The notes under the pieces were generated by a model. That model saw only the letters and a list, made by a program, of their open reading frames with translations, was not told the DNA's origin and searched no databases. A DNA stretch of 64,000 nt. It comes from Leptolyngbya sp. FACHB-321. GTDB lineage: Bacteria; Cyanobacteriota; Cyanobacteriia; Leptolyngbyales; Leptolyngbyaceae. The translations under genes were made by a program, and so were the position numbers. Below are positions 46,943-48,679 of this stretch, piece by piece. Each line of letters opens with the position of its first letter. Positions within the stretch are counted from its first letter, which is position 1. The stretch spans positions 1 to 64,000 of the forward strand of contig NZ_JACJPI010000046.1 in assembly GCF_014695975.1 (NCBI RefSeq), written 5' to 3'.

Positions 46943-48589
46943 TTAAAACGAATACACCAGACGTAGGAACCATTGAAAGATAGTACCGCGATCGCGATTG
47001 TCAGGATTGCTCACTACGGTTAGAGCTGGTGTAACACTGATGTTGTCGTTAAGCAAGAAGCTGTAGAACACTTCAATATTGGTCTGTGTCGCATCGCCCA
47101 GGTCTTTTTCGACAAACGGTTGCCCGATCGCAATGCCAGCTGTAGAGCCAGGGATGAACAACTGCCGTGCGACAAAGCCGATCGACCAGCTTTTAGGATT
47201 CAGGTCTAAGTCTTGATTCAACAGTGGATTGAAGCCCTCATAGCTGCCAATCGCAAACCGACCGAAGACAGCGAACTGGCGATTGAAAGCCCATTCGGCA
47301 TTGATGCCGCCTGCAAAAATATCCACATTATTCACGGTTGCCTTCGTTAGCTGAAACCGAGCAATGATGTTTTTGCTAAAGTCATACTCGACTTCCAGGC
47401 TACCCTGGTTGCGATCGCCAAACAAACCACCATCAGTAATGTCAGCGTTGGGACGTGATGCATCCGCTGCCACATACAGCGCCCGCACAATCAGCGGTAG
47501 GTTCGCTGGTTTCCAGGTCAGTACGGCTCCGGCACCACCTACGCGATCGATCTGATTTTGCACAATCAGCGGATTGTTGAGAAAAAAACTGGAGGAAAAC
47601 GTTTCGGTAGAGTCGTTTGCAAAGCGGTTGTAGTCAATGAAATCTCGTGGCGACAGTCGCGCCCCAACCGTGAGGTTAAAACCGGGTGCAGGCTGAAAGG
47701 AGTAGGACAAGTTGCTGAGGCGCACCGCACTTGCAACCCCAACGTAATCTAAGCCACCACCGCCTGCCAGCAAGCCCAGTGTTCCTAACAGGTTTTGTTC
47801 ACGCTCTTGGGCACGTCCGATCGCATCGTTACCGTTGTTGCCAGCTTCCAGTTGCGTTGAGAGCGCACCATTGGGTGCAAAGCTTGTGATGAGGTTAAGG
47901 CGAGTGCGCGACAGCACGGTACCGCGAGCATTAGAGCCATCCGTAAACACTAAAACTGATTGCCCCGATAGTTTAGTGGTAGTGGAAAACTGATTCTGCT
48001 CCAGAATAGTAACTTGCTGGTCAAGCTGATTAGCACGCTCACGCAAATCGGTCGCGATCACTCCATAGGATGCCTGAAGCTGCTGTACGGTAGCAAGATC
48101 TTCCCGCAACTGGGCAACATTGCCACGACCGACGACATATTGCTGCGAAATAACATCCAGCACACGCGCCAATCCTGCCGCAAATTCGTTGCGTGTCAGT
48201 GCTTGATTGCCCCGAAACGTGCCGTTTGGATAGCCGATCGCCACATCATACCGTTCAGCAAGCGACTGTAAAGCCTGATACGCCCAATCAGTCGGACGCA
48301 CGTCGCTCAACGCAGCCACCGATTGCACCTGCGCCATTGCATCATTAGCTGGTTCTATACAGTCAGATTCAAGGCGATCCGGCTGTACCTGTAGCGATTC
48401 TGGCTGTACCTGTGGTGGTATAAAAGGACAATCTAACGAGGGGCGCTCATCAAGCGGCACGACCTCTGAAAGCTCCGCAGGTTCTACTACAGAGTCATGA
48501 TTAGGAATAGGGGTTGTCCACCCAGGCAAAGTCTGGCAGAGCACTCCCAGACTACCCAACCCTCTAGCCAACCAGTTTTTTTTACTCAC
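46943..48589 (-). CDS. SLH-domain outer-membrane porin (som/iron-uptake type)
   Basis: A 548-residue exported porin. An N-terminal signal-like stretch (residues 4-25, WLARGLGSLGVLCQTLPGW) is followed by a long acidic region, an SLH domain (DVRPTDWAYQALQSLAERYDVAIGYPNGTFRGNQALTRNEFAAGLARVLDVI), a coiled coil (LREDLATVQQLQASYGVIATDLRERANQLDQQVTILEQ) and an OprB-like beta barrel ending in the aromatic pattern FLRLVYSF. Cyanobacterial porins of this type form the main outer-membrane channels. The start is GTG at 48587-48589, with a strong Shine-Dalgarno AGGAG six bases upstream that overlaps the Yfr1 complement. A longer frame to 48634 has no ribosome site. Confidence 0.93.
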   Translation of the reverse strand: MSKKNWLARGLGSLGVLCQTLPGWTTPIPNHDSVVEPAELSEVVPLDERPSLDCPFIPPQVQPESLQVQPDRLESDCIEPANDAMAQVQSVAALSDVRPTDWAYQALQSLAERYDVAIGYPNGTFRGNQALTRNEFAAGLARVLDVISQQYVVGRGNVAQLREDLATVQQLQASYGVIATDLRERANQLDQQVTILEQNQFSTTTKLSGQSVLVFTDGSNARGTVLSRTRLNLITSFAPNGALSTQLEAGNNGNDAIGRAQEREQNLLGTLGLLAGGGGLDYVGVASAVRLSNLSYSFQPAPGFNLTVGARLSPRDFIDYNRFANDSTETFSSSFFLNNPLIVQNQIDRVGGAGAVLTWKPANLPLIVRALYVAADASRPNADITDGGLFGDRNQGSLEVEYDFSKNIIARFQLTKATVNNVDIFAGGINAEWAFNRQFAVFGRFAIGSYEGFNPLLNQDLDLNPKSWSIGFVARQLFIPGSTAGIAIGQPFVEKDLGDATQTNIEVFYSFLLNDNISVTPALTVVSNPDNRDRGTIFQWFLRLVYSF

Positions 48590-48594
48590 ACCAC

Positions 48595-48605
48595 ACTCCT
48601 CACAC
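48595..48605 (-). promoter_or_regulatory. Ribosome binding site with Yfr1 complement
   Basis: On the minus strand the porin mRNA reads GUGUGAGGAGU directly before the start codon (six bases after the SD to GTG at 48589). This is the exact 11-nt complement of ACUCCUCACAC, the single-stranded conserved core of the cyanobacterial sRNA Yfr1, which is known to repress porin (som) translation in Prochlorococcus. Pairing here would cover the Shine-Dalgarno element. Confidence 0.8.
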
Positions 48606-48679
48606 GGTTCGCTGGGTCTGCCTAATAAAGACAACCCAAGTTAGACCTATCAGGAGTTTACACGGTCGATCGGTCATTA

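Follow-up and report, generated by a model that had tools for sequence, protein, structure and literature searches.

The porin gene of Leptolyngbya sp. FACHB-321 studied here carries, over its Shine-Dalgarno element, a sequence complementary to the core of the small RNA Yfr1, and this raises the question of whether its start site is a point of sRNA control, as the initial annotation of the window (the whole 64,000-nucleotide stretch of DNA analysed) had proposed. Pfam searches identified PF04966 (E 2.2e-11) and PF00395 (E 7.7e-8) in the protein, both over the cut-off, and the domain order, SLH followed by the OprB barrel, is that of OprB-type cyanobacterial porins. A glyoxalase-family gene lies upstream and a ClpB-type ATPase gene downstream. 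The relevant features of the window are the following:

46943..48589, minus strand: porin gene, OprB family with an N-terminal SLH domain, 548 aa, GTG start (Pfam, open reading frame list and orthologs).
48587..48589, minus strand: GTG start codon of the porin (frame; start conserved in the genus).
48596..48599, minus strand: Shine-Dalgarno GGAG, part of the Yfr1 site and separated by 6 nt from the GTG.
48594..48605, minus strand: predicted Yfr1 binding site, complementary without mismatch over 12 nt to CACUCCUCACAC of Yfr1 (the core of 11 nt and one additional base).
48614..48637, minus strand: predicted 5′ UTR hairpin GGGTTGTC...GGCAGACCC, with the upstream block on one side of it and the Yfr1 site on the other.
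48646..48666, minus strand: ACCGTGTAAACTCCTGATAGG block, with almost no change across the genus (alignment).

Around the porin start the minus strand reads ...GAACC GTGTGAGGAGT GTGGT GTG AGT AAA... The location of GTGTGAGGAGT over the Shine-Dalgarno element and its complementarity to the Yfr1 core were confirmed at 48605-48595, and the match extends to 12 nt, with the G at 48594 as a twelfth pair opposite the C just 5′ of the core of the strain's own Yfr1. The annotated distance of six bases to the GTG holds for the GGAG (48599-48596); the last base of the 11-mer itself lies 5 nt before the start codon. Members of the genus share both the start codon and the frame, which supports the assignment of the start to the GTG at 48589.

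Yfr1 has been defined by the undecanucleotide ACUCCUCACAC, which lies in an unpaired stretch of 16-20 nt that links two hairpins, and its gene is located upstream of trxA in 27 of 31 genomes (PMC2190773). A search of the genome with Rfam family RF01116 revealed one clear Yfr1 gene (58.8 bits against a gathering score of 38), predicted to fold into two hairpins with an open linker of 19 nt. A thioredoxin open reading frame, trxA, is found directly 3′ of it at L167 18163, and guaB is not its upstream neighbour in this genome. The strain's Yfr1 therefore combines the undecanucleotide in an open linker, the Rfam score and the trxA location, and its presence removes the objection, foreseen in the annotation, that the genome might lack this sRNA. 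RF01116 matches above the gathering score were obtained in 38 of the 39 genomes searched, this one and its relatives. Two RNA loci outside the window are relevant to the analysis:

L008 1479-1543 (in L167, 17973-18037): Yfr1 gene (RF01116, fold).
L171 6980-7437 (contig C37, about 66980-67437): three tandem Cyano-1/Yfr2-type RNAs (RF01701).

Yfr2 RNAs are assigned to Rfam family Cyano-1, RF01701 (PMC8400943). Two of the three tandem RNAs match the complement of the Yfr1 core exactly, and the third adjoins them without the exact 11-mer. Yfr2-type RNAs are known Yfr1 binders and share with the porin site the GUGUGAGGAGU motif; they differ from it in being stand-alone sRNAs, the porin site being part of an mRNA leader. 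The tandem cluster is a possible sponge for Yfr1.

The exact complement ACTCCTCACAC occurs once in the window, against 0.02 occurrences expected from shuffles; the 6.7-Mb genome contains it 11 times and the reversed control sequence 6 times. The placement of these sites is not random. One of the 11 is the Yfr1 gene, two are Cyano-1/Yfr2-type RNAs, and five are start sites of envelope genes, namely the window porin, a second OprB porin (C72), murC, a TonB-dependent receptor and an exported DUF11 protein whose start codon is uncertain. The second porin, murC and the TonB receptor belong to classes targeted by Yfr1 in Nostoc. At the murC start the site is TGTGGTGTGTGAGGAGT (L007 1501-1515), and low-energy hybrids of murC with Yfr1, from -21 to -31 kcal/mol, were predicted in 30/30 family orthologs examined. 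The three remaining sites (L001, L005, L011) could be assigned to no gene or RNA; they are followed by no open reading frame of note and gave no Rfam match. A second Yfr1-like (Yfr10-type) RNA was considered for them and set aside.

The strength of the predicted pairing was compared with that of 940 genes from a 1.26-Mb sample of the genome. Of the 940, the window porin gave the lowest hybrid energy in predicted pairing with the Yfr1 linker, -27.6 kcal/mol against a mean of -9.5 kcal/mol and a best 1% at -20.4 kcal/mol, and its 12-bp duplex with Yfr1 (-21.1 kcal/mol) was stronger than that with the anti-Shine-Dalgarno (-13.7 kcal/mol). Opening the Yfr1 linker would have no cost, and opening the mRNA site would cost 2.3 kcal/mol for a transcript beginning near 48650 and 4-8.5 kcal/mol for one beginning further upstream; a longer leader could thus fold the site away (8.5 kcal/mol), which counts against pairing. 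Uninterrupted complements of at least 8 nt at the start were found in 8 of 12 porins and in 20 of 939 other genes (Fisher 9e-11), and complements of at least 11 nt in 4/12 and 1/939, respectively; porin starts were picked by hand and background starts by a simple rule, which makes these tests slightly uneven, with an effect far larger than the bias.

Some match to Yfr1 is expected at any Shine-Dalgarno, because the Yfr1 core resembles the anti-Shine-Dalgarno. The site might accordingly be a strong Shine-Dalgarno alone, where a Yfr1 match would arise as a by-product of ribosome binding, since the core contains CUCCU like the 16S anti-Shine-Dalgarno, together with chance in the GTGT flank. The overlap of the core with GGAG agrees with such an origin, as does the decay of the complement to GAGGAG-like sequences in many distant orthologs. 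However, among 704 genes bearing a Shine-Dalgarno only 2 reach 10 nt of Yfr1 complement and 1 reaches 11 nt, and none of 300 linker shuffles with CUCCUC held fixed separated porins from other genes as well, the porins exceeding the shuffles in 300/300. Shuffles were used in place of permuted-core controls, which were set aside because the porin has GTGTG on either side of GAGGA, so that shifted cores match too.

Further evidence on this point came from the orthologs. In the genus, the porin leader shows two conserved blocks, ACCGTGTAAACTCCTGATAGG and GTGTGAGGA, amid diverged flanks, with GTGTGAGGA kept in 6/7 members. Conserved complementarity at the ribosome site had been named in advance as support for sRNA control, and its loss beside a retained Shine-Dalgarno as counter-evidence; the orthologs provided some of each. 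One genus member, G003, carries TGGTGTGAGGAAC, in which GGAG is lost and the Yfr1 match (TGGTGTGAGGA) kept, and this retention of GTGTGAGGA without GGAG argues against a Shine-Dalgarno alone. Another, G004, carries GTGCGAGGAGTG, which keeps GAGGAGTG and the Shine-Dalgarno and loses one pair. In many genomes outside the genus only 8-11 nt of complement are left at the window porin, and some genomes have none; the match measures 12-13 nt in the genus-level group g6 and only 5-7 nt in the family genera g15, g10 and g3. Because of these three genera and the pair broken in G004, the predicted Yfr1 control of the window porin is not family-wide. The ortholog set excludes L211 (G039), with no match in the stretch examined, and L128 is truncated.

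The conservation of another porin, on contig C71, is more telling than that of the window porin. Of the 28 genomes in which its ortholog could be scored, 25 keep a complement of at least 9 nt, either as GGTGTGAGG(A) immediately ahead of the ATG or as a comparable match of that length, and in almost all of them a canonical GGAG is missing. The strain's own C71 and C80 porins likewise have a Yfr1 complement without GGAG. Such porins speak against an origin of the match in ribosome binding, and we consider it improbable that the site is a Shine-Dalgarno and nothing else.

Two observations concern porin upstream regions. Porin start sites upstream of the ATG at 1177 in L022 and in the orthologs L258-L286 share a conserved GGTGTGAGGA and have no GGAG, and the Yfr1 complement seems to be kept there in place of a standard Shine-Dalgarno. 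In L034, at about 2840-2910, intergenic ACTCCTCACCCCTC-type repeats that resemble the Yfr1 core lie upstream of the ortholog of the porin.

The second conserved block of the leader, ACCGTGTAAACTCCTGATAGG, is from its position probably a -10 region with the transcription start, and a sigma-70 consensus scan gave no promoter. CTGATAGGGTTTAATTTGAG-like versions of the block occur in other genera. The genus members largely share the arms of the predicted hairpin downstream of it, GTCTTT and CAGACC, and differ in the sequence between them. The ACTCCT of the block, if transcribed, could pair with the Shine-Dalgarno. An alternative is a control in cis, independent of Yfr1, where this conserved sequence about 55 nt upstream would hide the AGGAGT. 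Such a pairing does appear when a leader that begins 5′ of the block is folded to minimum energy, and the near invariance of the block in the genus would fit it. On the contrary, the resemblance of the block to a -10 element followed by a transcription start would leave ACTCCT untranscribed (a reading from position, the consensus scan having returned no promoter), the fold is no better than those of shuffles (z -1.33), and in G003 AGGAGT is changed to AGGAAC with ACTCCT unchanged. Control by such a cis pairing thus appears quite improbable.

Altogether, the site, the Yfr1 gene, the Yfr2-type genes, the porin-wide enrichment and the conservation were directly observed, and the sequence evidence supports the proposed reading of the porin start as a Yfr1 control point: we assign a probability of roughly 0.85 to the porin mRNA being a Yfr1 target subject to translational repression, with relief by Yfr2 possible. 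The single-stranded Yfr1 linker would pair with 12 nt over the Shine-Dalgarno of the mRNA and block ribosome binding, holding down porin synthesis, and the Yfr2-type RNAs, with two copies of the motif, could act as titrators of Yfr1 and thereby relieve the repression of the porin. For the pairing itself, the repression and the relief by Yfr2 we infer from Prochlorococcus and Nostoc. Compensatory mutations in Nostoc mapped sites of this ribosome-blocking kind (PMC6974561), and the titration of Yfr1 by Yfr2 has its basis in both organisms (PMC6778093, PMC6974561). Binding of Yfr1 might instead activate or stabilise the porin mRNA, as the Nostoc target amiC2 is activated (PMC6974561); however, the amiC2 site lies far upstream of the start, and sites over the ribosome-binding region were repressed (PMC6974561), which makes activation here highly improbable.

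Yfr1 control of porins (OprB-like ones included), murC and TonB receptors is already published for Prochlorococcus and Nostoc. In Prochlorococcus MED4 two porin mRNAs (PMM1119, PMM1121) likewise base-pair with the Yfr1 core in their start regions, and porin repression by Yfr1 was seen in a reporter assay (PMC6778093); that strain belongs to another lineage and has only two porins, whereas here most of the 12 porins have sites. The annotation had named Prochlorococcus porins as the known targets, which is correct and incomplete: porins and murC have also been validated in Nostoc (PMC6974561), so that an example from a filamentous strain is not in itself new. The regulon of Nostoc sp. PCC 7120 (alr4550, alr0834, murC, the TonB-dependent all2158 and others) comprises the same target classes, OprB-like porin, murC and TonB receptor, whose sites lie a short way before the start (PMC6974561). 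The two target lists are not identical, and the present predicted target is a GTG-start porin in a Leptolyngbya-type genome. No paper on such Yfr1 targets in the Leptolyngbya lineage was found in the open-licence literature.

The porin-wide extent and the porins poor in Shine-Dalgarno sequences are the parts possibly worth a specialist's attention. It is conceivable, and we propose it only tentatively, that nearly the whole porin set of the family uses the Yfr1 complement as a start-site element, in some cases replacing the standard Shine-Dalgarno, and that a constant sRNA with Yfr2 decoys sets total porin output together with murC and the TonB receptors. The predicted sites would extend the outer-membrane and cell-wall regulon of Yfr1 to a Leptolyngbya-type lineage, and porin starts that keep the Yfr1 complement without a canonical Shine-Dalgarno would make sRNA control separable from ribosome binding by sequence.
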